NCBI GenBank assembly: GCA_903911145.1
Contig: CAIWCD010000030.1
Span: 124,001 to 188,000, forward strand
DNA length: 64,000 nt
Direction: 5' to 3'
DNA from: an uncultured delta proteobacterium
GTDB taxonomy: Bacteria; Myxococcota; Myxococcia; Myxococcales; 40CM-4-68-19
Part shown: piece after piece, positions 13,294 through 64,000 of the stretch
Layout of the letters: every line of letters begins with the position of its first letter
Numbering within the stretch: position 1 is the stretch's first letter
The notes under the pieces: model-generated
What the model saw: the letters and a program-made list of their open reading frames with translations, nothing else
The model's database searches: none
Told to the model about the DNA's origin: nothing
Position numbers and translations under genes: made by a program

Positions 13294-13344
13294 GACGAAG
13301 CAGACGTCTTGCGCGGTGGCGGGGGGATTTTCTCGCGGAGCGCG

Positions 13345-14910
13345 ATGAGCAGCTTGCAGCCAGAAGAGAAGACCGTTCGCCCCTTGCGCATCCTCCGGAT
13401 CGCGCCGACGGACGGTGACGTCGAGACGCTGACGCGTGAGCTTCTGCGTGCGCAGTTCGCGCCCTCCTGGCTGCGCGTCGAGACACAGACTGCGCTCGAC
13501 GCGGCGCTTGAGCGCGAGACGTGGGATCTCGTGCTCACCGACTGGACGTTGCCGGCTCTCGATGCGGTGGGCGTGTTCGCGGCGCTCGCGGTGCGGGAGC
13601 GGAAGGTCGCGTTCGTCGCCATCGCCAGTGAGCGCGATGCGGAGTCTCTGCTGGAGGCGATGCGGGCTGGCATCCACTACGTGGTGCCCAGAGAGAGCCT
13701 CTTTCTCCTCGGTGCCGTGATCGAGCAGGCCCAGCTTGCGGTGCAGCGAAGTATCGAGCGGCGGCGAATCGAAGAGCAGCTGGTCGTGGCTGACCGCATG
13801 GTGTCGGTCGGGACGCTCGCCGCGGGCGTGGCGCACGAGATCAACAATCCGCTTGCGACCGTGCTCGCGAACCTCGAACTCGCAACGCGCGAGACTGCCG
13901 ATCTGCTGCGTGCGCAGGGAGAACTTCCGCGGCTGCTCGAGCTGCGCGACGAGCTGCGGGATGCCCGCGAGGCGGCCGAGCGCGTGCGTGCGACCGTGCG
14001 CGATCTGAAAACCTTCTCTCGCTCCGACGACGAATCGCTGGGCCCGATCGATCTGCAACGCGTGCTCGATTCCTCGGCGCGCATGGCGTGGAACGAAGTT
14101 CGCCACCGGGCGCGACTGGTGAAGGATTACCAACCGGCGCCCGCGGTCGAGGGAAACGAAGCGCGTCTCGGCCAGGTCTTTCTCAACCTGATCGTCAATG
14201 CGGCGCAGGCGATTCCCGAGGGGAAAGCCGACGAGCATCAGATCTCGCTGGTCATTCGCAGCACGACCGCCGAGGTGATCGTGGAGGTGCACGACAGCGG
14301 CGCGGGCATTCCTCCCGAAGTGCTTACACTCATCTTCGCGCCGTTCTTCACGACCAAGCCGGTCGGCGTCGGCACGGGGCTCGGCCTCTCGATCAGCCAG
14401 CGCATCATCAACAAGCTGGGTGGACGCATCACCGTCGAGAGCGAAGTCGGGAAAGGCACCGTCTTTCGCGTGCACCTGCGTCGGGCGCAGACGGTGGCGC
14501 CGTCCCCGCCAGACGAGTTGGTCAGCAGCGCGCCTCCGCCGCCCCGGCGCGGCAAGCTGCTCGTGATTGAAGACGAACCGTCGCTGCTGCTCGCGATCGA
14601 GCGCACGCTCTCGGGACACCACGACGTCACCACACTTTCGCGCGCCTACGGTGCTCTCGAGCGGATCGTCGCGGGCGCCCGGTACGACGTGATTCTCTGC
14701 GACCTGATGATGCCGGAGATGACCGGCATGGATCTTCACGCCGCGCTGCTCTCGGCCGCGCCAGACCAGGCTTTGCGGATGATCTTCCTCTCCGGCGGGA
14801 CGTTCACTCCGCGAGCGCGCGCGTTCCTCGATCAGGTGCCGAACCTGCGCATCGAGAAGCCGTTCGAGTTGATGGAGTTGCGGACGATTGTGGGCGAGCG
14901 CGTGCGCTGA
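13345..14910 (+). CDS. Hybrid sensor histidine kinase with N- and C-terminal receiver-like domains
   Basis: 521 residues; ATG 13345 is chosen for the GGAG just upstream and because the fold starts there. Residues about 10-130 look like a receiver-like domain (DLVLTDWTLP). Then come HisKA with H164 in GVAHEINNP and a HATPase with NLIVNAAQAIP, DSGAGIP and GTGLGLSIS boxes. A C-terminal receiver follows with acceptor D453 (ILCDLMMPE) and a conserved K in EKPF. No membrane segment is visible, so it is a cytoplasmic phosphorelay protein. It probably acts with the preceding response regulator. The TGA stop lies inside the first arm remnant of repeat copy A3. Confidence 0.92.
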   Translation: MSSLQPEEKTVRPLRILRIAPTDGDVETLTRELLRAQFAPSWLRVETQTALDAALERETWDLVLTDWTLPALDAVGVFAALAVRERKVAFVAIASERDAESLLEAMRAGIHYVVPRESLFLLGAVIEQAQLAVQRSIERRRIEEQLVVADRMVSVGTLAAGVAHEINNPLATVLANLELATRETADLLRAQGELPRLLELRDELRDAREAAERVRATVRDLKTFSRSDDESLGPIDLQRVLDSSARMAWNEVRHRARLVKDYQPAPAVEGNEARLGQVFLNLIVNAAQAIPEGKADEHQISLVIRSTTAEVIVEVHDSGAGIPPEVLTLIFAPFFTTKPVGVGTGLGLSISQRIINKLGGRITVESEVGKGTVFRVHLRRAQTVAPSPPDELVSSAPPPPRRGKLLVIEDEPSLLLAIERTLSGHHDVTTLSRAYGALERIVAGARYDVILCDLMMPEMTGMDLHAALLSAAPDQALRMIFLSGGTFTPRARAFLDQVPNLRIEKPFELMELRTIVGERVR

Positions 14911-15105
14911 GGCGGGCGCGGCGAAGACGCTCACGCGTAAGCCAGCGCGGCGGAAGATGCCTCGCGCGAAATCAATCTCGCTGGCGGTCGCGCTTCGGCG
15001 TCCCGGACGCCGGCGCTGTGGAGAAGCCTTGCGCGTGCTCAGCGAAACAGCATCGTGATGGTTGGGGCGAAACGTTGCCGGCCGCTCCCCGCCACGCCCC
15101 GCCTC
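14909..15105 (-). repeat. Palindromic element family A, copy A3 (truncated)
   Basis: Read on the minus strand, the copy starts with a full arm (15074-15105) and the conserved ...GGCAAC-GTTTCGCCCC opening. It runs through GGCGTCCSGGACGCC and the GCGCTGGCTTACGCGTGAGCG end box, but lacks the final AGATATCCAGGTGCGTGTTGCC and most of the second arm. Only the outermost 8 bases of that arm (14909-14916, GAGGCGGG) remain complementary to the first, overlapping the kinase stop codon. This fits an internal deletion. Confidence 0.7.
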
Positions 15106-15388
15106 GACGCTCGCAACCGATGTTCGTTCTCGCGCACGTGTGCATTCGATTCCCACGCGTACGAGCCGGACTGGGCGCGAACAGCGACGAGGGGTTCGAT
15201 GAGATCTTCGAGGCCCGAGGCCGCAGACCGTCAGTCGCGAGGAGATGGCGCGCATTCCGTATCAACATGGCGTCACGCGCGACTGGTCGACGTCGCCGGC
15301 GCTGCCTCCGGATGGCAGCTGTCAAGAGCAGCAGCAGATGCTCGTTCCGCCGAGGGCGCTCGAGCCGTCTGGACAGCGAGCGTCGGTG
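15106..15388. other. Intergenic stretch with no clear gene
   Basis: Between repeat A3 and the broken ORF at 15389. Short open frames cross it in all plus-strand frames, one with an ATG at 15245, but none has a spaced ribosome-binding site or a recognisable motif. No promoter or terminator stands out. Confidence 0.4.
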
Positions 15389-15755
15389 ATGGACACTCCG
15401 GCCGGCCCTCCTCCCGCGGGAACCAAGGCGTCGTTTCCCAATCCAACGCACACCGACCTGATCGATCTGCCGCTCGCACTCCTGCGCCACTCGGCCAACG
15501 CGCAGAGCTATCTCAATCAGCCCCAGCGATGAGGCGCTCGGCGGTCTGCAGCCCGAATCGCGCGAGACGCTCGAGCCCGCGCTGGTGGCGGCCTACGTGA
15601 CTTCGACCAACTGCGAGCTGCTGGCTCACGAGCCGGACCTGCGCGCGAGGAGCGCGCTCGAGCTGACGCTGCGACGCTGGACGGACAAGAGCGAGCGCAT
15701 CGAGAGAGCCTGCAAGAAAGCGCTCGAGAAGATCACGGCGCTCGAGAAGAAGTAG
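15389..15755 (+). pseudogene. Small unrecognised ORF broken by a +1 shift in a CCCC run
   Basis: From ATG 15389 the frame encodes about 45 residues and meets a stop at 15530. Removing one C from the CCCC run at 15521-15524 instead continues into a frame open to the TAG at 15753-15755, giving a protein of about 122 residues. The joined product has a Pro-rich start, then ALLRHSANAQ, ALGGLQPESRETLEPALVAAY and a basic, helical Lys/Glu-rich tail. I do not recognise the family; a faint likeness to carboxymuconolactone decarboxylase-type proteins is too weak to name. It is flanked by repeats A3 and A4. It may be a decayed gene or an intact gene with a base-calling error. Confidence 0.4.
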
Positions 15756-15852
15756 CCGCCGCGCTCGCGCCGCTTCTTGATCGGTCCCATTCCGTCGAGC
15801 ACGGACACGCCGAAAAATCCCGCCGCTCGCGCGATGCGAAATCCCCCGAGTA

Positions 15853-16092
15853 GCCCGGGGCGGCGTTGAGCGGTCCGGGCAACATTTCGCCCCGACCATC
15901 ACGATCCGGTTTCGCCTACGCCGCGCACTGCTCTCAACAAGCGCTGGCGTCCGGGACGACGAAGCGCGACCGCCAGCGCAGAATCCTCTCGCACGACGGA
16001 TCTGCCGCCGCGCTGGCTTACGCGTGAGCGTCTTCGCCGCGCCCGAGATATCCAGGTGCGTGTTGCCCGGACCGCTCAACGCCGCCCCGGGC
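15853..16092 (+). repeat. Palindromic element family A, copy A4 (upstream of nuoE)
   Basis: Arms 15853-15883 and 16062-16092 are perfect 31-bp inverted repeats around a 178-bp core. The core is very close to that of A2: ATTTCGCCCCGACCATCACG near the start, GGCGTCCGGGACG and GCGACCGCCAGCG in the middle, and CTGGCTTACGCGTGAGCGTC and TATCCAGGTGCGTG near the end. The arms are unrelated to those of A2. The element ends 54 bp before a consensus -35 box for nuoE. Confidence 0.85.
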
Positions 16093-16146
16093 CCACCCGA
16101 ATTCGCACCCGCGCCCCGCCGAGATTTTCCGATCGCGCGCCCGTCC

Positions 16147-16175
16147 TTGACACCCCCCCGTGATCGCACTAATCG
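16147..16175 (+). promoter_or_regulatory. Sigma-70-like promoter of the nuo cluster, probably leaderless
   Basis: TTGACA at 16147-16152 is followed by ACTAAT at 16168-16173 (15-bp spacing) or TAATCG at 16170-16175 (17-bp spacing). The start codon is at 16186, so the mRNA leader would be only a few bases long. Confidence 0.5.
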
Positions 16176-16185
16176 TCCGCGCCCG

Positions 16186-16773
16186 ATGATCCCCTTGACG
16201 CGTCCTGCCGGTCCGGTTCCGTCGCCGTTCAACGCAGATCAGCAAGCCCGTTTCGATGCTGGTTTCGCCAAGGCGATTGCCAAATACCCCGCGGACAAGA
16301 AGCGCGCTGCGCTCTTGGCCGTCCTCCACCTCGCGCAGGAACAGCTCGGTTGGCTGCCCGAAGCGGCGATGGCCTACGTCGGGTTTCTCCTCGACGTTCC
16401 GGCCGTGCGGGTGCGGGAGGTGGCGACCTTCTACACGATGTATCGGCTCAAGCCGGTCGGCTGCCACCACCTCGAGATCTGCAACTCGGTCTCCTGCTGG
16501 TCGAAGGGCTCCGAGGCGCTCCTCAAGCACGCAAAGGAGAAGCTCGGCGTCCACGCAGGCGAGGTCACGCCCGACGGGAAGTTCTCCTTCGGTGAGGTCG
16601 CGTGCCTTGCGGGCTGCGGCTACGCGCCGTCGATGGTTGTCAACAACTACGCGTACGCGGAAGACATGACTCCCGAGAAGTTCGACGCGCTCATCGAGAA
16701 GCTGAAGAACGAGCCCGGTCAGAACATCGCCGACTTCCCGAAGAACCACGACACGGGGCGCGCCCATGGCTAA
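16186..16773 (+). CDS. nuoE: NADH-quinone oxidoreductase subunit E (24-kDa, 2Fe-2S)
   Basis: 195 residues. The four cysteines that hold the N1a 2Fe-2S cluster are present as C99-x4-C104 and C140-x3-C144. The thioredoxin-like fold of the family is recognisable from EVATFYTMYRLKPVGCH. ATG 16186 is chosen because earlier in-frame starts lie in repeat A4 and a promoter lies just before it. With NuoF it forms the NADH-dehydrogenase module of complex I in the cytoplasmic arm. It is the first gene of a nuoEF-JKLMN cluster and overlaps nuoF by 8 bases. Confidence 0.95.
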   Translation: MIPLTRPAGPVPSPFNADQQARFDAGFAKAIAKYPADKKRAALLAVLHLAQEQLGWLPEAAMAYVGFLLDVPAVRVREVATFYTMYRLKPVGCHHLEICNSVSCWSKGSEALLKHAKEKLGVHAGEVTPDGKFSFGEVACLAGCGYAPSMVVNNYAYAEDMTPEKFDALIEKLKNEPGQNIADFPKNHDTGRAHG

Positions 16774-18061
16774 TCTCCCGACGCCGCCCATGCCGTTGCC
16801 GCAGACCTCGCCCGTGAAGATCCTCACGCGCGACTGGCATCTGCCCGAGTGTTGGACGCTCGAGAACTATCTCAAAGGCGGCGGCTACCAGGCGCTGCCG
16901 AAGGCGCTGAAGATGGCGCCGCAGGCGATCGTCGACGAGGTCGTGAAGGGGAATCTGCGCGGCCGTGGTGGCGCCGGATTTCCCACCGGCATGAAGTGGA
17001 ACTTCGTCCGCAAGGAGACGTCGTTCCCGAAGTACCTGGTCGTCAATGCCGACGAGGGCGAGCCCGGCACGTTCAAGGATCGCGCGATCCTCGAGTGGGC
17101 GCCGCACATGTTCGTCGAGGGCCTGATCATCGGCTGCTTCGCAATCGACTGCCACGTCACCTACGTCTACTGCCGCGGCGAGTTCCGCGACGGTCCCGTC
17201 GCTCGTCTGCAGACGGCGATCGACGAGGCCTACGCGAAGGGCTGGCTCGGCAAGAACATCCTCGGCTCCGGCTTCGATCTCGAGATGCACGTCGTCCGCG
17301 GCGCGGGCGCATACATCTGCGGTGAAGAGACGGCGCTGCTCGAATCGCTCGAGGGCAAGAAGGGCTATCCGCGCCTCAAGCCTCCGTTCCCGGCCAACGC
17401 GGGCGGCGGACTCTTCAAGCAGCCCACGGCCGTCAACAACGTCGAGACGCTGGCGAACATGCCGGCGATCATCGAGAAGGGCGGCGACTGGTTCTCCTCT
17501 GTCGGTTGCCCGAAGAACGGCGGCACGCGCCTCTTCGCTGTCAGTGGCCACTCGAAGAAGACGGGCGTGTTCGAAGCGCCGATGGGCACGACATTCACGG
17601 CGCTGCTCAATGACTACTGCGGCGGAATGCGCGACGGCTCGACGCTCAAGGCGATCATTCCGGGCGGCTCCTCGTCGGCAATCATGACGGCCGAAGAGGC
17701 CGAGTGGATGAGCGACTTCGACACGCTCAAGACGAAGAAGACGATGGCCGGCTCCGGCGCGGTGGTCTTCCTCGATCAGAGCGTGAACATGGCCCACGCG
17801 CTCGCCAACGTGACCCGCTTCTACGCGACCGAATCGTGCGGACAGTGCACGCCCTGCCGCGAAGGAACCGCGTGGCTGTCGCGCCTGCTCGACAAGCTCT
17901 GCCGCGGCGAAGGCGAGAAGAAGGACGTCGACAACATCCACCAGATCGCGCGCCAGATGGAGCAGAAGACCATCTGTGCTCTCGCAGACGGCGCCGCGAT
18001 GCCGGTGAAGAGCTACATCGAAAAATTCCGCGGCGACTTCGACGCGCTGGTCAAGGGGTAG
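16766..18061 (+). CDS. nuoF: NADH-quinone oxidoreductase subunit F (51-kDa, FMN and 4Fe-4S)
   Basis: 431 residues. It carries the NADH/FMN site region GRGGAGFPTGMKW and the N3 4Fe-4S ligands C358, C361, C364 (CGQCTPC) with the fourth, C404, in TICALADG. It accepts electrons from NADH and passes them to NuoE and NuoG. NuoG, the next subunit in the electron path and in the usual gene order, is not in the window: nuoJ follows after 4 bases. Confidence 0.97.
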   Translation: MANLPTPPMPLPQTSPVKILTRDWHLPECWTLENYLKGGGYQALPKALKMAPQAIVDEVVKGNLRGRGGAGFPTGMKWNFVRKETSFPKYLVVNADEGEPGTFKDRAILEWAPHMFVEGLIIGCFAIDCHVTYVYCRGEFRDGPVARLQTAIDEAYAKGWLGKNILGSGFDLEMHVVRGAGAYICGEETALLESLEGKKGYPRLKPPFPANAGGGLFKQPTAVNNVETLANMPAIIEKGGDWFSSVGCPKNGGTRLFAVSGHSKKTGVFEAPMGTTFTALLNDYCGGMRDGSTLKAIIPGGSSSAIMTAEEAEWMSDFDTLKTKKTMAGSGAVVFLDQSVNMAHALANVTRFYATESCGQCTPCREGTAWLSRLLDKLCRGEGEKKDVDNIHQIARQMEQKTICALADGAAMPVKSYIEKFRGDFDALVKG

Positions 18062-18065
18062 CTCA

Positions 18066-18608
18066 ATGGCCGAGACCATCCTCTTCTACATCTTCGCGAT
18101 CGGCGTGCTCTTCGCGGGCGCGCAGGTCGTGCTCCGGCGCAATCCCGTGCACGGCGCGCTGTCGCTCGTCGCCTGCTTCTTCTTCCTCGCCGGCACCTAT
18201 GTGCTGCTCGCCGCGCACCTGATCGCGATCCTCCAGATCATGGTCTACGCGGGCGCGGTGATGGTGCTCTTCGTCTTCGTCATCATGCTCCTGAACTTGA
18301 AGGACGAAGAGCTCGGGACGCCTCGGCGCACGATCTGGAAGGGCATCGGGCTCGTTTCGGTTGTCGGCGCGACTGGCGCTGTCGCCTGGCGCGGGCTCGG
18401 CTCGGCGTACGATTCCGTTCTCGCGCACGGCGCCGCCACGCAGCTCACGGACATGGCGAAGCACACGCTGCCCGGCGCGCCGTTCGGTTCGCTCAAGGCG
18501 GTCGCGCACGCGGTCTATCTGAACTCGGTGCTCCCCTTCGAGCTCACCTCGCTGCTGCTGCTGGTCGCAGTGGTCGGCGCGGTCGTGGTCGCCAAGGGAA
18601 AGATCTGA
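18066..18608 (+). CDS. nuoJ: NADH-quinone oxidoreductase subunit J
   Basis: 180 residues with five hydrophobic segments (about 2-20, 28-50, 55-75, 90-110 and a C-terminal one at 155-178). The [20 protein letters not shown] region with the pi-bulge helix typical of NuoJ is present. It is part of the membrane arm next to the quinone-binding subunit NuoH. The gene begins 4 bases after nuoF, taking the place where nuoG, nuoH and nuoI normally lie. Confidence 0.93.
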
Positions 18609-18621
18609 AAGGAAGGACGCG

Positions 18622-18945
18622 ATGGTCGGACCGCTTCACTATCTCGTGCTCGCAGCCGCGCTCTTCGCGCTCGGTGCGGTCGGCGTTGTCATCCGCCGCA
18701 ACGCGATCATCGTGCTCATGTCGATCGAGCTGATGCTCAACGCCGTCAACCTCACGTTCCTGACCTTCTCGCGCTTCCCTCTGGTGGTGAAGGGCAACGA
18801 CGCCCCGATCGCGGGACACGCGGCGGTCTTCTACGTGATTGCCGTCGCCGCGGCTGAGGCCGCCGTCGGACTCGCCATCGTCATCGCCGTCTTCCGCAGC
18901 AGGCTCACCGTCAACGTCGACGAGATCGATTCGCTGAAGAACTAG
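18622..18945 (+). CDS. nuoK: NADH-quinone oxidoreductase subunit K
   Basis: 107 residues with three hydrophobic helices, the usual NuoK size. The two membrane glutamates important for proton transfer in the family are visible in [13 protein letters not shown] (helix 2) and [10 protein letters not shown] (helix 3). A strong AAGGAAGG ribosome-binding site precedes the ATG. It is co-transcribed with nuoJ and nuoL. Confidence 0.96.
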
Positions 18946-18979
18946 CGCTCGCGACACCAAGCTTCACAAGGATTGACCG

Positions 18980-20938
18980 ATGCTGGAAGTGAACTGGCTG
19001 CACCTCATCCCGCTCTTGCCTCTCTGCGGCGCCGCCATCTGCGGCCTCGTCGGGAACAAGCTGCCCAAGAGCTGGCTCTACGCCGTCGCGCTCGGAAGCG
19101 TCTTCACCGCCTTCATGATCGGCCTCTCCGCGTTCGGTCTCGTCAGCTCCGAGACTGGCGCGAGCGCGCTGCATGAGCGCGTCTTCGAGTGGTTCACCGC
19201 GGGCAAGCTGCACGTCGATCTCGGCCTCACGATCGATCGCGTCAGCGGTACGCTCGTGCTCGTCATTACGGGCGTCGGCTTCCTGATCCACCTCTACAGC
19301 GTCAGCTACATGGATGAGGACGCGGCCTACTGGCGCTACTTCGCGTACCTCAACCTCTTCGTCGCCGCGATGCTCCTGCTCGTGCTCGGCGACAACCTGG
19401 TCGCGATGTTCGTGGGCTGGGAAGGCGTCGGTCTCTGCTCGTATCTCTTGATCGGCTTCTGGTTCGAGGACGACGCGAAAGCCTCCGCGGGACGCAAGGC
19501 ATTCATCGTCAACCGCATCGGCGACTTCGGCTTCCTCCTCGGCATCTTCGTCATCTTCTCGCAGTTGGGCAGCGTCTCGTTCGCCGACATCCACGGCGCG
19601 ACGTTCGCAGCCGTGCCTGCAGCGCTCGCGGCGCTCTTCCTCTTCATCGGCGCGACGGGCAAGAGCGCGCAGCTGCCGCTCTACATCTGGCTCCCCGACG
19701 CGATGGCCGGCCCGACTCCCGTCTCCGCGCTCATCCACGCCGCCACGATGGTCACCGCCGGCGTCTACATGATCGCGCGCCTCTCGCACCTCTATATGCA
19801 GGCGCCCGGTGTGCTCGCGGTCGTCGCCATCATCGGCGCGCTCACGGCCGCCTGGGCCGCGCTGATCGCCACGTCGCAGAGCGACATCAAGAAGGTCCTC
19901 GCCTACTCGACGGTGTCGCAGCTCGGCTACATGTTCATCGGCGTCGGCGTCGGCTCGTTCGTGGCCGGCACGCAGCATCTGCTCACGCACGCGTTCTTCA
20001 AGGCCTGCCTCTTCCTCGGCTCGGGCGCGGTGATCCACGGCCTGCACGGCGAGCAGGACATGCGCAAGATGGGCGGGCTGAAGAAGTACATGCCGCACAC
20101 GCGCTGGACGTTCCTCATCGCGACCGCGGCGATCACCGGCACGATTCCGCTCTCGGGCTTCTTCTCGAAGGACGAGATCCTCGGCAAGGCGCTGCAGACC
20201 AGCATCTTCAACTCGCTGCGCATGTGGCCGGGCGGTCCGTTCATGACCCAGCTCGGTCTCGTCATCTATCTGCTCGGAAGCGCGACGGCGCTGCTCACCG
20301 CGATCTACATGTGGCGCTGCTACTACCTCACGTTCGAGGGCGACTACCGAGGTGGCCCCGACGTGCATCCGCACGAGTCGCACTGGTTCATGACGCTGCC
20401 GCTCTGGATCCTCGCGCTGCTCTCGGTCGTCGGGCTCGTGCTCGGACTGCCGGAGCCGATCGGCGAGAAGCTGCACCTCGACTGGGCGAGCTGGGAGCAT
20501 TTCTCCCTCGGCGTATTCGCCAACCCGCCGATCTCGAACAACCACGAGAGCATCCCTGAGTGGCTCACCTACGGGATTGCGCTCTTGATCGGAGTCGTCG
20601 GATGGCGCCTTGCGGTCTACTGGTTCGGCTCGGGCTCCGAAGAGCGCTCGAACAAGCTGGTGGCGGCTTTCCCGCGCGTGCACAGCGCGTTCGAGCACAA
20701 GCTCTACGTCGATGAGTTCTACAACGCGGTGATCGTGCGGCCGCTCTGGACGGGCGCGCGCGTGCTCTGGCGCGTCGTCGACGTCTGGATCATCGATGGA
20801 CTCTTCATCAACGGAACAGCGCAGTCGGTCGCCTTCATCGGCTCTATCGCGCGGCGCTTCCAGAACGGTGACGTCCAGCGGTACGCGGCCATGACCGCGC
20901 TGGGCCTCGCTTTCCTCGTCTACGTCTTCTTGCGATAG
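18980..20938 (+). CDS. nuoL: NADH-quinone oxidoreductase subunit L
   Basis: 652 residues with about sixteen membrane helices. The antiporter-like core includes GWEGVGLCSYLLIGFW with the key glutamate, the broken helix region PLYIWLPDAMAGPTPVSALIHAATMV, and the lysine-bearing AYSTVSQLGYM. The C-terminal part contains the lateral helix region, ending YAAMTALGLAFLVYVFL. NuoL is the distal proton-pumping subunit. Its gene lies 34 bases after nuoK and 8 bases before nuoM. Confidence 0.97.
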   Translation: MLEVNWLHLIPLLPLCGAAICGLVGNKLPKSWLYAVALGSVFTAFMIGLSAFGLVSSETGASALHERVFEWFTAGKLHVDLGLTIDRVSGTLVLVITGVGFLIHLYSVSYMDEDAAYWRYFAYLNLFVAAMLLLVLGDNLVAMFVGWEGVGLCSYLLIGFWFEDDAKASAGRKAFIVNRIGDFGFLLGIFVIFSQLGSVSFADIHGATFAAVPAALAALFLFIGATGKSAQLPLYIWLPDAMAGPTPVSALIHAATMVTAGVYMIARLSHLYMQAPGVLAVVAIIGALTAAWAALIATSQSDIKKVLAYSTVSQLGYMFIGVGVGSFVAGTQHLLTHAFFKACLFLGSGAVIHGLHGEQDMRKMGGLKKYMPHTRWTFLIATAAITGTIPLSGFFSKDEILGKALQTSIFNSLRMWPGGPFMTQLGLVIYLLGSATALLTAIYMWRCYYLTFEGDYRGGPDVHPHESHWFMTLPLWILALLSVVGLVLGLPEPIGEKLHLDWASWEHFSLGVFANPPISNNHESIPEWLTYGIALLIGVVGWRLAVYWFGSGSEERSNKLVAAFPRVHSAFEHKLYVDEFYNAVIVRPLWTGARVLWRVVDVWIIDGLFINGTAQSVAFIGSIARRFQNGDVQRYAAMTALGLAFLVYVFLR

Positions 20939-55377: not shown

Positions 55378-57097
55378 TGATCGACTGCGCGAGCTCGGCG
55401 CTGCATCGCGGCTGCTCGCGACTGCCGATGCCCAAGTCGTGACGCATGCCTCGTCGGTCGCCGCGGGTATCGCGCCGCTCGCCGCCTGCGCGGACGCACA
55501 CGCGCTTCGCGAGCCGACTGCACCGAAACGGGAGCAGCTCGCGCAGATCAATCGGATCAGCGACCGGCTGGCTGCTGCGCAGGTGGCCGGCAGAGCGGGC
55601 CGTCTCAAGCCCGCGCTCGCGGAGCTGCGCACTCTCCTGGCAGAGACACGAAAGCTGGACTACGCGCCGCTGGAGTCGACCATCCTGTTGACCGCTGCGC
55701 ACTACGAAGGCCAGAACGAGAACGAGCCGGCGGCGGAGCAGCTGTACATCGAGGCTGCGGCCGCTGGTCTGCGCGGCAGACAGGATCGACTGGTCGCACT
55801 TCCTTGGATCGCGTTGGCGGAGCAATTCGTTCGAGCCGAGCGTCACGACTCCGCCTCACTCGCACTGTTGCAGGCCAAGGCGGCGTCGAGTCGTGTCAGC
55901 GAAGATCTCGACGTCCAGATTCAACTGGGAGAGCTCCTCTCGATGGTGGAGCGATACGGCGGCGATCCGAACGAGGCGCTTCGGATCGCTGAGCGGACAC
56001 TGGCTCTGGCGCAGAGAGCGCCGGACCACATTCGCGGGATGGTGGAGGCGCTCGGAGAACTGGAGTTGGCGCAGGAAGTGACGGGCCACCACCAGCTCGC
56101 GACAGAAACTCAGCGACGGGCCCTGGGGCTGGTTCGACAGGAGTACGGCGCGGAGCATCCCGCTACGGCGTACCGGGAGCAGCGCCTCGCTGGTGGGGAG
56201 ATCCAGATTCGTCGTTCCGCCGAGGCGCAGATGCACCTCCTCCACGCGATCGGGATCTTCAAGCAGGCCTACGGTGAGGACAGCATTTCGGTGTCGGAGG
56301 GCTACATCGATCTGGGATACAGTGCCCTCAATGTCGACCCTGCGCGGGCGCTATCGTGGTTCAACCTCGCAGCGTCGCTGATGGCGCGCCGATCGCCCAA
56401 TACACGTACGGCTCAACTGGACGACTATCTTGGCTCCGCGCTCCAAGCGCTCGGGCGACTCGACGAAGCGCGGGATTATCTCGAGCAGGGACTTGCGCTG
56501 GCTGCGCGCCTCGACCCGGCACCGACGAACCCGCAGGCGCTCCAGCTTGCCATCGACCTCGGCTCCGTTCTGGTCGACCTGGGCAGCACGCAGAAGGCGC
56601 GTCCTCTTCTCGAGCGAGCGCTGGCGGAGGAAGAGAACAATCGAGGAACGTACATCGCTGATGCCCTCTTTCAGCTCGGTCGACTCGAGTCGGCGGAGGG
56701 CCACGTTGGTCAAGCGCGGCGATTGATGGAGCGGTCGATTCCTCTCTCTCGCGACGACGGTACGGACACGATCGACTCGATCGATCGCGAGCTGTCTCTC
56801 GCCGAGGTCGAGCTCTTCGAAGCCCCCGCGCAAGCGCTCGCACGCGTGGAGCGAATCGCCGCAATCCCTCTCCCAGAGCCGGAGATCGACGATCTGGTCG
56901 ATCGCGATCGCGCGCACTTCCTGCTCGCGAAGGCCCGCGTCGCCGCGAAGGATCCTGCGCACGATCTCGCCTCCGCGTTGCAGCTCGCGCACTCTGCGCG
57001 CGAGGGATACGCGAAGCGCGGCGCGCGATTCGGCAAGCAGCTCGCGGAGGTCGAGCGCTGGCTCGCCCTGAACGCAACGGGAGCGAAGACGCGCTGA
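55061..57097 (+). CDS. TPR-rich C-terminal part of the frameshifted Ser/Thr kinase
   Basis: This frame has no proper start of its own; read from 55061 it begins with a membrane helix (GVTSVILLATSGFLLV) that would follow the kinase if one G of GGGG (55059-55062) were absent. Then come several helical repeats from about residue 140 to 600, TPR-like (LAELRTLLAETRKLDYAPLE, LGSALQALGRLDEARDYLEQGLALA, LGSTQKARPLLERALAEEENN). In Myxococcota the order kinase-membrane helix-TPR is common and this part would lie outside the cytoplasm. If the shift is real, only the kinase without its sensor would be made. Confidence 0.8.
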   Translation, partial: GAGVTSVILLATSGFLLVRSARRAGECRGAEQKLAGIWDGAQREKIRSAIAATKLPYADAAWNSVSKSFDRYTAEWVAMRTDACEATVVRREQAPDLLELRMACLDDRLRELGAASRLLATADAQVVTHASSVAAGIAPLAACADAHALREPTAPKREQLAQINRISDRLAAAQVAGRAGRLKPALAELRTLLAETRKLDYAPLESTILLTAAHYEGQNENEPAAEQLYIEAAAAGLRGRQDRLVALPWIALAEQFVRAERHDSASLALLQAKAASSRVSEDLDVQIQLGELLSMVERYGGDPNEALRIAERTLALAQRAPDHIRGMVEALGELELAQEVTGHHQLATETQRRALGLVRQEYGAEHPATAYREQRLAGGEIQIRRSAEAQMHLLHAIGIFKQAYGEDSISVSEGYIDLGYSALNVDPARALSWFNLAASLMARRSPNTRTAQLDDYLGSALQALGRLDEARDYLEQGLALAARLDPAPTNPQALQLAIDLGSVLVDLGSTQKARPLLERALAEEENNRGTYIADALFQLGRLESAEGHVGQARRLMERSIPLSRDDGTDTIDSIDRELSLAEVELFEAPAQALARVERIAAIPLPEPEIDDLVDRDRAHFLLAKARVAAKDPAHDLASALQLAHSAREGYAKRGARFGKQLAEVERWLALNATGAKTR

Positions 57098-57135
57098 GCC
57101 ACACTGGGCGCTGGCGGGAGCGATTCCCTGCGCGG

Positions 57136-58401
57136 CTAATCCTCCGCAGTCATCTCGCGCGGCGCAGGCTCGGCCGCCACTTCCGCGGGCACCGAGCCAT
57201 CCTCGGGGAAGATCCGATCGAGCGCGGCCTTCACGTCGGCCACAGTGCAGAGCGTGGGCGCGAGCTTGCGGAACGCGAGCCCTCCGCGGCGGCCGCGCGT
57301 GTACCAGAGCAGATGCTTGCGCAGCTCGCGGATCGCGGCCAACTCGGCGGTCTGCTCGTTGAGCTCCTCGTGCACGTGCCCGCCGTTCTCGCGGAACGCA
57401 CGGCGCGGCGGCGCATCGGCGGCACGCTCGATCTTGTAGAGGCCGCGCTTGTCGGCCACCGCGAGATCGACGTGGCGCAGGATCATCGCGCGCCACTCGG
57501 TGAGCGTCACTTCCGGCGGCGTCTCGCCGCGCTCGAGCGCGAGCAGCTCACGAAAAATCCACGGGTGGCCGCAAGCGCCGCGCGCGATGCGAGCCGCGTC
57601 CGCGCCCGTCTCGCGCAGCATCCGCATCGCCGCCTGCGCCGTGAAGAGATCGCCCGAACCCCAGACGGAAATTCCGACCGCGCGCTTCGTCTTCGCGATC
57701 AGATCCCAGTCGGCGCGCCCACGATAGAGCTGCGCGCGCGTGCGCGGATGCAGACCCACGCCGACCGCGCCACCCTGCTCGCAGGCCTTCGCGATCTCGG
57801 GCGCGTTCTTGTGCTCTTCGTCCCAGCCCGCGCGAATCTTCACCGTGACGGGCAGAGGAGAAACCGCCTCGACCAGCTTGCGCACCATCTGCTCGACGAG
57901 CCGCGGATCCTTGAGCATCGCAGCGCCCGCGCCGTTGCAGCAGACCTTCTTCACCGGGCAGCCCATGTTGATATCGACCGCATCGACGGGGCCATACTTC
58001 TCGACCGCCACGCGCGCGCCCGCGGCGAGAATCTCGGGAATGTGGCCGAACACCTGGATGCCGAACGGCCGCTCGTCAGCGGGCCGCTCCAGATACGAGA
58101 GCGTCTGATCGCCGCCGTGCACGAGACCGAAGCTGGAGATCATCTCCGTGTGCGCCATCGACGCGCCCATCTCGCGGCAGAGCATACGAAACGGCCAATC
58201 GGAGACGCCCGCGAGCGGTGCGAGAAAATATCGATTCTTGAGCTTCAGCGGCCCCAGATTCACCGTCTGGATCGGCTTGCCATCCGCACCCGTGCTCGCG
58301 CTGCCGGACGCATCCGGCCCGTGCTGGGCGCGGCCCTCCGCATCTTTCGCGAAGGCCCGCGACGCAAACGGAGCCTCATTCTCGAGCGCCTGGACAGACA
58401 T
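57136..58401 (-). CDS. dusB: tRNA-dihydrouridine synthase (DusB-like)
   Basis: 421 residues from ATG 58401. FMN-dependent reduction of uridines in tRNA. The substrate/FMN barrel shows LAPLAGVSDWPFR near the start and the catalytic cysteine in INMGCPVKK, followed by GAGAAML, KIRAGWDEEH, HPRTRAQLYRG and GSGDLFT. The ARIARGACGHPWIF segment completes the family pattern. An extra N-terminal Ala/Gly-rich stretch of about 45 residues and an acidic tail are unusual. It is convergent with the kinase-TPR gene and divergent from the Cys-repeat lipoprotein. Confidence 0.93.
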   Translation of the reverse strand: MSVQALENEAPFASRAFAKDAEGRAQHGPDASGSASTGADGKPIQTVNLGPLKLKNRYFLAPLAGVSDWPFRMLCREMGASMAHTEMISSFGLVHGGDQTLSYLERPADERPFGIQVFGHIPEILAAGARVAVEKYGPVDAVDINMGCPVKKVCCNGAGAAMLKDPRLVEQMVRKLVEAVSPLPVTVKIRAGWDEEHKNAPEIAKACEQGGAVGVGLHPRTRAQLYRGRADWDLIAKTKRAVGISVWGSGDLFTAQAAMRMLRETGADAARIARGACGHPWIFRELLALERGETPPEVTLTEWRAMILRHVDLAVADKRGLYKIERAADAPPRRAFRENGGHVHEELNEQTAELAAIRELRKHLLWYTRGRRGGLAFRKLAPTLCTVADVKAALDRIFPEDGSVPAEVAAEPAPREMTAED

Positions 58402-58410
58402 GCCGCGCGC

Positions 58411-58438
58411 ATTACACCCGCAGCAGCACGCGGCGCAA
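58411..58438 (-). promoter_or_regulatory. Promoter of dusB
   Basis: On the minus strand TTGCGC (58433-58438) and TGTAAT (58411-58416) are 16 bases apart. The -10 ends 9 bases before the ATG, so the transcript would be almost leaderless. Confidence 0.45.
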
Positions 58439-58488
58439 TCCTGCTCCACCAAACATCTCGCCCGACGCGAAGACACAGGCCGGCGGAG

Positions 58489-58543
58489 CCCGATCTCTTT
58501 TTTCGCGCGGAGCCGCGCAGCGAGCACGAAAAAAGAGATCGGG
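58489..58543. repeat. Hairpin of the loop-box family, copy 3
   Basis: CCCGATCTCTTTTTTCG (58489-58505) and its perfect complement at 58527-58543 enclose a 21-base loop with the GCGCGGAG-like and CGCAGCGAGCA boxes found in the hairpins at 4168 and 24965. It lies between two divergent genes, so it is not a terminator for either. Confidence 0.8.
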
Positions 58544-58582
58544 TCAGCGGCCGGATAGTCACCTCGAGTAGAGTCGCCCTTC

Positions 58583-60412
58583 ATGCGCACACTCACTCGT
58601 CGACCCGTCGCCGCGCTGTCCGCCCTCCTCGCATTCGCCGCCGCGCTCTCGGCCTGCAGCAGCGCGTCCCCAACGCTCCCCGACGGCGGCCCGATTCCTC
58701 CCGGCGACACGCTCTGCACCAAGAGCAGCCAGTGCCCGGTCGGCCAGGGCTGCATCGGAAATCTCTGCACGCCGCTCCCCTGCGGAGGCTGCGACTCCGA
58801 CAAGGTCTGCTCGAGCGTGAGCAACACCTGCGTGCCCGCGCAGGGTGCGCCATGCCCCACGGTGGGCGGCTGCCCGCAAGGCTACGAGTGCAACTCGAAC
58901 AACGTCTGCGCCGCGCCGTGCACCATCGACACCGATTGCGCGGCAGGCCTCGTCTGCAACTCGAACACGGGCACCTGCGCGCAGTGCGTGTTCGACAGCA
59001 ACTGCAACACCGTCGCCGGCCATCCGCGCTGCGCGCCCTCGGGAAATTGCGTCGCCTGCCTGCAGCCGATCGACTGCACCACCGCTCTGGGCGCCGGCCA
59101 CTTCTGCGATCTCGGCACCAACACCTGCAAGGCCGGCTGTGAGTCGAACAGCGACTGCAATCTCGCCAACGGCGAGCGCTGCGCGGGCGCGACGACAACG
59201 ACGCCGGGCAAGTGCGTCCAGTGCACGCTCGCGACCGAGGCAACCGATTGCGTCAGCATCGGCGCGCCCGCTTGCGACTCGACGAACCACTGCGTTGAGT
59301 GCACCGCCGACAAGTACTGCGGGCCGGCCACACCGCGCTGCGACGCGATCGCCGTCTCGGACGCGGGCGTGACGACGGGCACCAACACCTGCGTGCAGTG
59401 CCTGCCCTCGAACAACGCGAACGGCTCCGACTGCGGCTACGTCTTCAGCACCGGGCCGAAGGATCCGCACGACGAGCTGGTCTGCGATCCGATCGCCAAG
59501 CGCTGCACCAGCGGCTGCACGAGCGACAAGAACTGCGGCTGCCCGGTCGATCCTGCGACCGGCAAGGAGACCAACTGCCTGCGCGAGTTCAAGCAGGAGC
59601 ACTGCGATCCGAACCGCACGACCAGCGCTGACGTCGGCGACGCCGGAACGCTCGGGGCCTGCGTCGAGTGCATCACCAACGCGCAGTGCTTCTGCAAGAT
59701 CGACGGCAACGGCGGTCAGGCAGATCCGAGCACCGGCACCGCGTGCTCGAGCTGGCTCAACGCCGGCGCGTTCAACGGCGCGCGCTGCCTCTCCGATGTC
59801 TGCGTGCAGGGCTGCGACACCAACGCAGACTGCCCGGCGAACCGGCTCTGCTCGCTCTCCGGACCGACCGCGCACCAGTGCGTCGAGTGCAGCTGCGCGA
59901 ACGAGACGATCAACGATTCGCCCGGCGGCACCTGCACGGCGAACTCGAAGAGCTGCGGCTGGTGCGAGAACCCGATCGTCAACGGCCAGCTCGGCGGATG
60001 CGGGCCGGTGGCCGACGAGAACGACGGCGGCTCGACCGCCAACGCACCTGCGAAGGTCTGCGATGCAAAGACGCTGACGTGTCGTCTCAAGCGGCAGAAC
60101 GAGGCCTGCTCGAAGAGCGTCGAGTGCGGCGATCCGCAGGACCCGACCATCGGACAGTGCATTCCCGGCATCGGCTTCTGCGTCGACTACACGGGCACGG
60201 GCACGAAGGAGTACTGCGCGGCCGATCATGCGAGCGGGCGCTGCGGGATCCCCTGCGTGAATCTGAGCAGCACCAACGATGCGTGCATCAGCGCCTCGGG
60301 AGATTGCCCGTCGGGCTCGATCTGCTCGCAGTCGACGGCGATCGATCAGCCGCTTCATGGAATCAACACCAGCGGCCACTACTGCGCCTCTGCTTCCTGC
60401 AATCATCAATGA
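58583..60412 (+). CDS. Cysteine-repeat surface lipoprotein
   Basis: 609 residues. A signal with lipobox LSAC (C25) is followed by a Ser/Pro linker, then by repeated Cys-rich modules (for example TDCAAGLVCNSNTGTC and NSDCNLANGERC) through to the end. Its modules resemble those of the protein at 1-2967. It is the first of three overlapping genes; its stop overlaps the start of the multiheme cytochrome gene (ATGA). A possible -10 TAGAGT (58569-58574) lies 8 bases before the ATG. It may be an outer-surface partner of the cytochrome, but this is only inferred from the operon. Confidence 0.85.
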   Translation: MRTLTRRPVAALSALLAFAAALSACSSASPTLPDGGPIPPGDTLCTKSSQCPVGQGCIGNLCTPLPCGGCDSDKVCSSVSNTCVPAQGAPCPTVGGCPQGYECNSNNVCAAPCTIDTDCAAGLVCNSNTGTCAQCVFDSNCNTVAGHPRCAPSGNCVACLQPIDCTTALGAGHFCDLGTNTCKAGCESNSDCNLANGERCAGATTTTPGKCVQCTLATEATDCVSIGAPACDSTNHCVECTADKYCGPATPRCDAIAVSDAGVTTGTNTCVQCLPSNNANGSDCGYVFSTGPKDPHDELVCDPIAKRCTSGCTSDKNCGCPVDPATGKETNCLREFKQEHCDPNRTTSADVGDAGTLGACVECITNAQCFCKIDGNGGQADPSTGTACSSWLNAGAFNGARCLSDVCVQGCDTNADCPANRLCSLSGPTAHQCVECSCANETINDSPGGTCTANSKSCGWCENPIVNGQLGGCGPVADENDGGSTANAPAKVCDAKTLTCRLKRQNEACSKSVECGDPQDPTIGQCIPGIGFCVDYTGTGTKEYCAADHASGRCGIPCVNLSSTNDACISASGDCPSGSICSQSTAIDQPLHGINTSGHYCASASCNHQ

Positions 60413-62400
60413 TCAGGGCGCGGGTTCTGCTGGTCTGTGCGGCGCTGTCTCTCTGTGGGGCAGCGTCGTCGCTGTCGTGCCGCGGTGTCTCCGATCGAAT
60501 CCCGCCGCCGCCGATCGACTCGACTCCCGCCGAGGTGCCCGGTGCTGCCGAGCGCGCCCAGCTTGGCTCCGCGCACATGCGGCCCTCGATGCCTCCGGCG
60601 GAAAAGAGCGATGCGCTGCTGACTCCAGAGGGCGACGCGGTGAGCGCCGCAGTGAATGCGGCGAAGGCGCGTCTGGCCGATGCGGGAGCCGCGGACACGC
60701 ACGTCGATGCGGGCGCAGTCGTGAGCGATGCGGAGGATGATGTCGCGACGCTGGTTCTCTCCTCGAGCGTGGCGGGAGAGTTGGTCCCGTGCGGATGCTC
60801 GCCCGATCAGCACGGAGGCCTGCCGCGCGCGGCCGGGCTGCTTGCGCAGTGGCGCCACGACTCGCCCGCGCTCGTCTATTTCGATGCGGGCGATCTGCTC
60901 TTCAGCAGCGCGGGCGCGCCCGTGGGTCCAAGCGTCGCGCAGACGATCTCCAAGGCGCGAACGTTGGCGCAGGGAGCGGCGCTGCTCGGCGCGGCCGCGC
61001 GGGTCGTGGCCGAGCGCGATCTCTCCGCGGGTGCACCCTTCGTCGCAGAGACGGCAGGCGGGATCCCGCTGCTCGATTCGGGCAGCGACCTGGCGGGCGC
61101 GCGCGAGACGTTGCTCGTCAAGGCCGGGCCGTCCGGAGTGCCGATCGGGCTCTTCGCGGGCGGGCTCGGACCGGCTCCGGAGAAATCGATCTCGACGCGC
61201 GCGACCGCGCTGCGCAAGGCCGGGGCGCGATTCGTTGTGCTGCTCCTGCACCCGCGCGGAGATCGCGCGCTTGCCGATGCGCAGGCGATTCTTCCCGCGG
61301 CCCGCGCGGCCGGCGTCGATCTGGTGGTGCTCGCGCATCGCGACGATCCCTCGCTCGATCCCAACGTCTCGATGCCGGGCGCGCCGCCGCTGATCGCGCT
61401 CGAGGGGCATGGCCAGTCGCTCCTGCGCATCGATCTGCATTTCCCGCATGACCTCGCGATCGGCGCGCCTGTCTGGATGCCGAAGAGCGCGGCGGAGAAG
61501 GAGAGCGAGCTGCGGACGCTTCAGCAGCGCAAGCAGATGTTGCAGGAGCGGATGAGCAGCGCGGAACCTGATCTCTCGCCGCAGCTCGAGGCGAAGATCC
61601 TCGAACTCGACACGCGCGCGCGCACCATCGAGAGCGCGGTCGAGCACGCACCGCCGGGCTCGGTCGTGCTGCAGGCGCAGTTCGTCGCGCTCTCTCGCGA
61701 GGTGCCGGAGGACGCCGCCGCGAAGGCGCTGATCGCGGCCTATGACAAGTCGGTTGCCGAGGAGAATCTCGCTGCGGCGACGAAACTTCCTGCCGATTGC
61801 CCGCGGCCCAAAGCAGGGGAGCCCGCGTTCGTTGGCGTGTCAGCGAAGAGCGCCGGGGCGAAGAGCTGCGAGGCCTGCCACGCGGACGAGGTGGCGTTCT
61901 GGGCACGCACGCGCCACGCACGCGCCTACGAAACATTGGTTGCAAAAGGCAAGCAATTCTCCTTCGACTGCATCCCCTGCCACACCACGGGATGGCAGCA
62001 GCCGGGAGGGGTCTGCCGCATCGATCGCACCGCGATTGGCGGACCGGGCGTTGCGACGCCGGCCGATCGGGTCGGGCCTGATGCGGACGAGCCGCTGCCC
62101 GCGCGCATCGCGCTCGGCCGCCAGGGCGTGCAGTGCGAGGACTGCCACGGGCCTGCCAGCGCGCACGCGAAGACCGGCGCAGATCTCGAAGAGGACACGC
62201 CGGAGTCTTCCTGCCGCCGCTGCCACGATCCGCAGAACTCGACCCACTTCGACTTCAAGCGCTACCTGCCGTGGATTCTCGGGCCCGGTCACGGCGAGCC
62301 GCTCACAGCCGGCGCCAAGCCGCGCACGCGAGGGGAAATTCGCGCGCACGACAAACTCGGTCCGAATGCGGCGCTGCGGCGCGCGCTGGAGGGAAAATGA
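60409..62400 (+). CDS. Tetraheme cytochrome c fused to a UshA-like domain
   Basis: 663 residues; the ATG overlaps the stop of the upstream gene. A signal with a lipobox-like LSC near residue 24 marks export. Residues about 105-370 resemble the metallophosphatase-like (UshA-type) domain found with multiheme cytochromes, starting LVPCGCSPDQHGGLPRAAGLL and with YFDAGDLLFSS. A coiled-coil segment (about 365-420) joins it to a cytochrome domain with four heme-binding sites: CEACH 487-491, CIPCH 521-525, CEDCH 576-580 and CRRCH 602-606. Relatives take part in extracellular or respiratory electron transfer. The ligand histidines of the phosphatase domain are largely missing, so it may be structural. 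Confidence 0.85.
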   Translation: MIRARVLLVCAALSLCGAASSLSCRGVSDRIPPPPIDSTPAEVPGAAERAQLGSAHMRPSMPPAEKSDALLTPEGDAVSAAVNAAKARLADAGAADTHVDAGAVVSDAEDDVATLVLSSSVAGELVPCGCSPDQHGGLPRAAGLLAQWRHDSPALVYFDAGDLLFSSAGAPVGPSVAQTISKARTLAQGAALLGAAARVVAERDLSAGAPFVAETAGGIPLLDSGSDLAGARETLLVKAGPSGVPIGLFAGGLGPAPEKSISTRATALRKAGARFVVLLLHPRGDRALADAQAILPAARAAGVDLVVLAHRDDPSLDPNVSMPGAPPLIALEGHGQSLLRIDLHFPHDLAIGAPVWMPKSAAEKESELRTLQQRKQMLQERMSSAEPDLSPQLEAKILELDTRARTIESAVEHAPPGSVVLQAQFVALSREVPEDAAAKALIAAYDKSVAEENLAAATKLPADCPRPKAGEPAFVGVSAKSAGAKSCEACHADEVAFWARTRHARAYETLVAKGKQFSFDCIPCHTTGWQQPGGVCRIDRTAIGGPGVATPADRVGPDADEPLPARIALGRQGVQCEDCHGPASAHAKTGADLEEDTPESSCRRCHDPQNSTHFDFKRYLPWILGPGHGEPLTAGAKPRTRGEIRAHDKLGPNAALRRALEGK

Positions 62401-63305
62401 TTCGCGCGCTCGCTGAACGCATCGCCTGGAAGAGCGTCCCCGATCTGCGCACGTCGCTGCTCGACAAGCTCTCGCACGCAGCGATGCTCGCGCAGGGTTT
62501 CGAGCAGTGGACGTCGCAGCTCGCCGGTCATCGGATCCAGCGGTACGCGCAAAGTGGCCAGGGGCGCGGTCCGGCGGTGCTGCTCGTCCACGGACTCAAC
62601 GGGTCTGCGGCCTCGATGGCGTCGCTCATTCGCGGGCTCGCGCCCATCGCTCCTCGCATCGCGCTGCTCGATCTGCCCGGCCACGGACTCTCTCCGCGGC
62701 CATCTCAAGGACCGGTTTCGGTGGTCGAGCACGCGGCCGTGCTGCTCGCGGCGATCGAGGAGCTCGCGAAAGAGACGGGAGGGAAGGTTGCGCTCGTCGG
62801 AAACTCGATGGGCGGCGCGCTCTCGCTCTCTGTGGCGCAGCTGCGGCCCGAGCTGATCGCGGGCGTCGTCGGCCTCAATCCCGCGGGCGCCTCCGTCGCC
62901 GACAGCGCGGTGGCCAAGCTTCCGCGCAGCTTCCCCGACGCCAATGCGGGCGCGCGCACGATGGCGCGGCTGCTCTTCAAGAAGCCGCCGACGCTCTTCT
63001 GGCTGGTCGCCCGCGACATCGCCCGCGGCTGGGAGCGCGACATCGTCCAGCGCGTTCTCACCGACGTGCGCGAGGGCCACCACCGCGGCTTGTCGAGCGG
63101 CGATCGCCTCGCGCTGCGGGTTCCTCTCTATGTGCTCTGGGGCGTCGAGGATCAGCTGCTCCCTCTCGCGAGCGTCGACGAATTTCGCCAGATCCCGGGC
63201 GCGCGCGTCGAGCTGATCGAAGGGTGCGGACACATGCCTCAGCTCGAGATGCCCGCGTTCACCAGCGCGCGCGTTGCGAGCTTCATCTCCTCGCTCACTC
63301 CTTGA
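62397..63305 (+). CDS. Alpha/beta-hydrolase
   Basis: 302 residues; the ATG overlaps the cytochrome stop (ATGA). The nucleophile elbow is GNSMGG, an oxyanion region HGLNGSAAS follows VLLVHG, and the acid/base residues are seen in LWGVEDQLLP and GCGHMPQLE. No signal peptide is evident. It is the third gene of the operon with the Cys-repeat lipoprotein and the cytochrome. Substrate unknown; the family includes esterases, lipases and C-C hydrolases. Confidence 0.92.
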   Translation: MIRALAERIAWKSVPDLRTSLLDKLSHAAMLAQGFEQWTSQLAGHRIQRYAQSGQGRGPAVLLVHGLNGSAASMASLIRGLAPIAPRIALLDLPGHGLSPRPSQGPVSVVEHAAVLLAAIEELAKETGGKVALVGNSMGGALSLSVAQLRPELIAGVVGLNPAGASVADSAVAKLPRSFPDANAGARTMARLLFKKPPTLFWLVARDIARGWERDIVQRVLTDVREGHHRGLSSGDRLALRVPLYVLWGVEDQLLPLASVDEFRQIPGARVELIEGCGHMPQLEMPAFTSARVASFISSLTP

Positions 63306-63347
63306 GCGATCGCGCTCGGCCGCACGGGGAGCGGTCGGGCGATGTTT

Positions 63348-63376
63348 TTGACATGGGTGATCGCGGTGCATAGATT
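63348..63376 (+). promoter_or_regulatory. Sigma-70-type promoter upstream of the mltD-like gene
   Basis: TTGACA (63348-63353) and TAGATT (63371-63376) are 17 bases apart. The gene starts 34 bases after the -10, giving a normal leader that contains a GGAGG ribosome-binding site (63402-63406). Confidence 0.7.
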
Positions 63377-63410
63377 CAAGGGTCGCCCTTCGTCATGCCG
63401 TGGAGGCACC

Positions 63411-64000
63411 GTGTTGCAACGCCCAGCTGTTCTCGCCTGTGCACTCGGTGCGTTGCTCTTTGCGGCGCGAGCCTCTGCCGCTCCTGCTGCGATGCCGCCC
63501 GACGAGCCGGTCGAGGAGCCCGCGCCGGTGCTGCTGCACAATCCTGCGGAGCCGGAGAGCGCACAGAATCCGGACGACGCGGAGGCACAGGAACATCTCG
63601 ACAAGAGCGCCGCCGAGCTCGATGCCGTGCGCCGCGCCGAAGAGAAGGCAGGACTGCTCCCGACCGCACCTGGCCTGGGTCCGCGCGATGGTCTGGGGAT
63701 TGGCCTCGGTCCGTGGAATCCGCTCATGCGCGACATCGAGTCGGCGATGGGCGTCTCGGTCGATGGCGCTCCCGCGGCCGATCCGATCCCGTCTGCAGGC
63801 GCGGCCGTTTCGCTGCCGGAACTCGCTGGCATCTCGGCCGAGGAGCTGCGCGCGAAGTACGACATTCCCGTCGAGCTGAACGAAGCTGTCGTCGCGTACA
63901 TCCGTTTCTTCCAGACCGACGCGCGCGAGCATTTCGCGCATTGGCTCGCGCGCAGCACGCGCTGGACGCCGTTGATGCGGAAGATCCTCGAGAAGGACGC
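63411..64000 (+). CDS. mltD: MltD-like lytic murein transglycosylase (5' part)
   Basis: The gene starts at GTG 63411, with GGAGG 4 bases before it, and runs off the window end after 196 codons. A signal peptide (LACALGALLFAARASA, cut before APA) is followed by an acidic Pro-rich linker. The last 50 visible residues, YDIPVELNEAVVAYIRFFQT and then HFAHWLARSTRW-x-PLMRKIL, match the region that leads into the SLT domain of MltD-type peptidoglycan transglycosylases. The catalytic glutamate and any LysM domains lie beyond the window. Confidence 0.85.
   Translation, partial: MLQRPAVLACALGALLFAARASAAPAAMPPDEPVEEPAPVLLHNPAEPESAQNPDDAEAQEHLDKSAAELDAVRRAEEKAGLLPTAPGLGPRDGLGIGLGPWNPLMRDIESAMGVSVDGAPAADPIPSAGAAVSLPELAGISAEELRAKYDIPVELNEAVVAYIRFFQTDAREHFAHWLARSTRWTPLMRKILEKD

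Follow-up and report, generated by a model that had tools for sequence, protein, structure and literature searches.

A tetraheme, Cys-form relative of the UshA-like (seleno)proteins in a recurring but accessory myxococcal gene row

UshA-like proteins with a PCGC or PCGU motif entered the lists of selenoprotein families in 2008. Three studies (PMC2398784, PMC9312934, PMC13188914) tabulate them under COG0737 as selenoproteins of the CxU kind; the first counted 76 selenoproteins in marine samples, alongside 92 homologues with Cys, and the last names the corresponding NCBIfam model, NF041198. A reported function or biochemical study of any PCGC/PCGU member was not found in the literature. Here, we describe a relative of this family, gene B, which is encoded in a window of 64,000 nt from an uncultured myxococcal genome.

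B lies in a row with a Cys-rich lipoprotein gene (A) and an alpha/beta hydrolase gene (C) (Table 1). The overlapping three-gene operon proposed in the first-pass annotation is real in that the ORFs share 4 bases (ATGA) at both the A/B and the B/C junction, but the row does not stop at three genes and continues into an mltD-like gene (D) at the window end. The product of D combines an SLT domain (E 1.2e-24) with LysM repeats (E 4.7e-27), as in MltD. Upstream of A, a divergent dihydrouridine synthase (Dus) gene is separated from the row by an intergenic region with an inverted repeat. In a test for a repeated element, its arm had no second exact copy in the genome. An Rfam search of positions 57000–64000 at E 1 returned no matches.

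Table 1. Features of the gene row, with positions in the window
Feature	Position	Strand	Description
Inverted repeat	58489..58543	.	20-nt arms, 95% complementary; divergent Dus/A intergenic region, upstream of A
Gene A	58583..60412	+	Cys-rich repeat lipoprotein, 609 aa, 77 Cys, canonical lipobox LSAC
Gene B	60409..62400	+	Cys-form relative of UshA-like (seleno)protein family with c554-like tetraheme domain, 663 aa; probable lipoprotein
UshA/SoxB-fold part of B	60709..61788	+	residues 101-460; without catalytic metal ligands; AlphaFold model mostly of high confidence
PCGC motif	60787..60798	+	B residues 127-130; Cys version of PCGU; 52/52 in the order, PCG[C/U] 62/62 across phyla
Heme site 1	61867..61881	+	CEACH, B residues 487-491
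Heme site 2	61969..61983	+	CIPCH, B residues 521-525; aligns with second heme motif of cytochrome c554
Heme site 3	62134..62148	+	CEDCH, B residues 576-580
Heme site 4	62212..62226	+	CRRCH, B residues 602-606
Gene C	62397..63305	+	alpha/beta hydrolase, 302 aa, no evident signal peptide
Gene D	63411..64000	+	mltD-like lytic transglycosylase (SLT + LysM); to ~65240 past the window; start codon uncertain

B matched NF041198 with an E-value of 6.5e-63 and 213.1 bits, below the curated equivalog cut-off of 275 bits, which was passed in none of 145 genomes of the order. On these scores we file B as a divergent relative of NF041198 and not as a member by NCBI's rule. The motif expected by the model, PCGU or PCGC followed by GG, is present in its Cys version, with GG at residues 136-137; the codon at 60796-60798 is TGC and does not encode selenocysteine. 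SelB scored above the cut-off in genomes G007 and G009 and in the Sec-bearing genomes tested, and no SelB did so in the window genome, G008, G037 or G143; the result for the window genome and G008 fits the Cys form of B. Judged by sequence comparison, B is not a new fusion: its family of (seleno)proteins is already described, with a tetraheme architecture that occurs in many phyla, and B represents the Cys (PCGC) form.

Among 52 homologues of the order, P127, C128, G129, C130, G136, G161, A183 and D204 were invariant, as were H503, H586, H628 and the heme-binding residues, the latter with the exception of one homologue without a full motif. Across many phyla, PCG[C/U], GG, G161, H503, H586 and all heme motifs were invariant in 62 homologues, a set picked for four hemes and the motif, which makes the invariance of those two features partly a matter of selection. 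Position 204 was acidic (Asp or Glu) in 61 of the 62, and the last motif position was Cys in 47 and Sec (TGA) in 15. In the survey that preceded this selection, 67 of 80 loci combined the motif with two or more hemes (50 Cys, 17 Sec). Such an interchange of Cys and Sec at one position is usual for redox thiol/selenol centres.

The AlphaFold model of B had high confidence over most of the N-terminal domain; its poor quality in the heme domain is expected of a model that contains no hemes. A Foldseek search of the PDB with this model returned E. coli 5'-nucleotidase, SoxB and NadN (1oie/4uwq; best E 5e-9); phmmer with B alone gave one weak PDB match, and a profile was needed. In the profile alignment to YfkN, GNHE aligned with ERD of B and GHQH with AHRD, neither of which is a counterpart of the motif, and order-wide counts found the former metal-ligand columns to be without metal-ligand residues. 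B thus lacks the dinuclear metal ligands and the catalytic His of UshA-type 5'-nucleotidases, and the description of a UshA-like domain without much of its metal site, fused to four hemes, was borne out. Loss of the nucleotidase metal site is family-wide.

The heme domain matched Pfam Cytochrome_C554 (PF13435) at E 5e-10, its 40.6 bits exceeding the gathering cut-off of 20.8, and aligned with cytochrome c554 over the first three hemes (profile, E 2e-14). In cytochrome c554, the second heme is five-coordinate. For the four hemes of B, three candidate distal His were invariant in the order and two in the 62 homologues. Together with the c554 precedent, the three invariant His make heme 2 of B a candidate open-coordination heme. 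The PDB entry 'MccSep' (multiheme cytochrome c selenoprotein) matched the B profile weakly (E 0.44), and no paper on it was found in the literature. Most order homologues of B have a lipobox in their leaders; that of B itself, SLSC, is less canonical, and B is probably exported and lipid-anchored.

B-like matches were present in 128 of 142 genomes of the order, weaker matches included, and B-like proteins were found across the phylum, being near-universal in one family (f6). Named records with homologues include Myxococcus, Sorangium, Nannocystis, Desulfobulbaceae, Scalindua and Planctomycetes, among others. A record titled Comamonas sp. KCTC 72670 holds a homologue of clear myxococcal type and is possibly a mislabelled assembly. 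Many genomes of the order also encode UshA-like paralogues without hemes, in which one in-frame TGA probably specifies selenocysteine; these lie beside a TPR protein like YbgF/CpoB.

The neighbours of B differ in how regularly they occur. A gene for MltD lies within 2.5 kb downstream of B on the same strand at 39 of 53 order loci. In the window's family, 11 genomes bear B, and C follows it in 10 of them; G037, from another family, has C as well, and G009 lacks it. A precedes B in five genomes from two families (the window genome, G008, G007, G009 and G037). All three genes stand together in the window genome, G008, G007 and G037, four genomes from two families; the finding that would have spoken against the trio, relatives in which the three are never together, was not made. 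The A-B-C arrangement recurs in diverged genomes and is not due to chance. The majority of B relatives lack both A and C. The trio is therefore conserved but accessory: A and C come and go independently, as lineage-specific additions around a core of B, while B and usually mltD stay.

No Pfam or NCBIfam family scored above its cut-off in A, the closest relatives of which are those adjoining B. In a search of 40 genomes with A, every match below E 1e-25 lay at a B locus (the homologue in G007 was found by regional comparison rather than by this search), and the window genome held no paralogue at E 0.001. Since the A-B linkage is kept across homologues that are 32-50% identical, the comparison suggests that A and B work together. 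A second Cys-rich repeat protein runs into the window from before its start (1-2967, plus strand; at least 988 aa, 126 Cys) and is about 25% identical to A. As a class, Cys-rich repeat proteins are not rare in the window genome; a tally of such frames in sampled regions gives a rough background only, its base-composition filter having missed A itself. Gene C encodes an Abhydrolase_1 domain (E 2e-26). No signal peptide was visible in C or its homologues, for which reason we predict C to be cytoplasmic.

In the cross-phylum loci, we sampled 29 close same-strand genes downstream of B homologues. Four were of DsbA type and four had a thioredoxin_7 domain within large HEAT-repeat proteins; three, directly downstream, were RlpA-type (DPBB_1) lytic transglycosylases, a second kind besides MltD. 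The 25 most frequent families in 140 distant control genes included none of thioredoxin type, a comparison in which families of two or fewer members may be hidden. The thioredoxin-fold positives come from about two lineages and few independent events, so this association is a lead and not proof.

Starting from the observed genes, motif conservation, Cys/Sec exchange, fold, heme sites and linkage, we propose as the best explanation of the whole that B couples an envelope thiol/selenol redox centre to its c554-like tetraheme module, a tentative reading with a probability of roughly 0.4. The UshA-type domain has given up the nucleotidase metal site and carries the invariant CxC (CxU in the selenoprotein relatives) instead, which we infer to be a redox-active thiol/selenol centre in the former metal pocket. 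Its counterpart in a two-electron exchange would be a substrate in the periplasm or at the surface, probably a thiol or disulfide on a partner protein; the tetraheme module would pass the electrons singly to or from soluble cytochromes. In this lineage, A may be a substrate or docking partner of B. C would be an accessory of esterase type in the cytoplasm, and mltD a neighbour concerned with the cell wall. In favour of this reading are the conserved PCG[C/U], GG and acidic position 204, the lost metal ligands, the invariant heme sites, the UshA/SoxB fold with its c554 match, the lipobox leaders of most order homologues, the thioredoxin-fold neighbours in other phyla and the A-B linkage in five genomes. 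Against it, no thioredoxin-fold gene adjoins B at the window locus, the steady neighbour in the order is mltD and not a thiol enzyme, and the heme-domain model is of low confidence; that the Cys-rich class is not rare in the genome, with another member in the window itself, counts against A as partner. In a narrower version, B would be a thiol oxidoreductase linked to the respiratory chain, its phosphoesterase fold converted to a CxC/CxU active site that is wired to hemes, and in this lineage it would act on the disulfides of A as its dedicated Cys-rich lipoprotein; this version seems to us improbable as it stands.

The CxC could also bind metal rather than cycle. B might then be an enzyme of metal or sulfur compounds. 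CxC/CxU would hold a new metal in the former UshA/SoxB pocket, and the hemes would serve to oxidise or reduce a small molecule, namely a sulfur, selenium or metalloid species. SoxB is indeed among the nearest folds, the motif sits just before the conserved GG, near the place of the first metal ligands in UshA, and some small-molecule reductases likewise carry c554-like domains (matches to octaheme proteins and c554). However, we noticed none for sulfur, selenium or metalloid chemistry among the genes that recur beside B in the order, and the neighbourhoods vary between phyla, which leaves this explanation on the unlikely side. The frequent mltD, the RlpA-type genes directly downstream at three further loci (L127, L137, L153) and the YbgF/CpoB-like neighbour of the heme-less Sec paralogues would instead suit a part in peptidoglycan upkeep, with the redox state of B sensing or tuning lytic transglycosylases. 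We know of no mechanism that links heme redox to these enzymes, the linkage may reflect shared expression alone, and neither partner was seen outside Myxococcota in the sample; we regard such a role as hardly probable.

The first-pass annotation had likened the fusion to modules linked to extracellular electron transfer. In such a system, B would relay electrons to outside acceptors and A would serve as a surface scaffold. Four hemes, lipobox leaders and an adjoining surface-type Cys-rich lipoprotein are compatible with this, as are a 57-heme lipoprotein and 20- and 10-heme frames on another contig of the same genome. Yet a search for an MtrB/PioB-type outer-membrane porin, the one porin type covered, found no match in the window genome, no conduit gene adjoins B, and the 57-heme locus is unlinked to it. 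Moreover, the homologues are near-universal in f6 and present in Myxococcus, Sorangium and Nannocystis, which are aerobes. On these grounds, the likeness went unsupported; extracellular electron transfer is the least supported reading, very unlikely in our estimate, and we set it aside as the main role of B. The other contig (C10, outside the window) carries at 12711-20129 an ORF of 2472 aa, its leader of lipobox type, in which 57 CxxCH motifs stand in apparent tandem repeats. With the 20-heme and 10-heme frames nearby on the opposite strand, it makes up a giant multiheme cytochrome locus. Given this separate locus, the genome as such may still be capable of extracellular electron transfer.

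The conserved combination of hemes with CxC/CxU, in which Cys and Sec interchange, yields a testable hypothesis for the PCGC/PCGU family when taken with the loss of the metal ligands, the invariant acidic position and the repeated thioredoxin-fold or cell-wall neighbours: that of a cytochrome-linked thiol/selenol enzyme in the cell envelope. The test is practical, as homologues are present in myxobacteria that are amenable to genetics.

Overall, the locus is a divergent variant of a described, uncharacterised family with a lineage-specific neighbourhood, and not a categorically new system. Of the earlier suggestion that an unusual trio forms a new surface redox system, the fusion and the degenerate metal site stand, but the wider claim was overstated, given the described family to which B is related, the many relatives without A and C, and a C predicted to be cytoplasmic. 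Other Cys-rich repeat lipoproteins of myxobacteria are a likeness for gene A only: the repeat style is shared with the protein at 1-2967, whereas the nearest relatives of A sit beside B, and its own genome yielded no paralogue at E 0.001. UshA/YfkN-type 5'-nucleotidases and SoxB share the fold of the N-terminal domain of B but keep the metal-ligand and catalytic His positions that B does not. The cytochrome c554 family (PF13435; Nitrosomonas c554, 1bvb) aligns in its first three heme motifs; c554 stands alone, whereas in B the module is the C-terminal part of a UshA-type protein. With NF041198, B shares the PCG-x motif followed by GG and a model match that extends through the cytochrome part (B residues 297-617 to model positions 221-519), and homologues across phyla likewise have four hemes. 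B differs from it in Cys replacing Sec at the motif, in a long N-terminal linker and in two extra Cys (464 and 536), which are kept in the order but not beyond and are features of the order rather than of the whole family.
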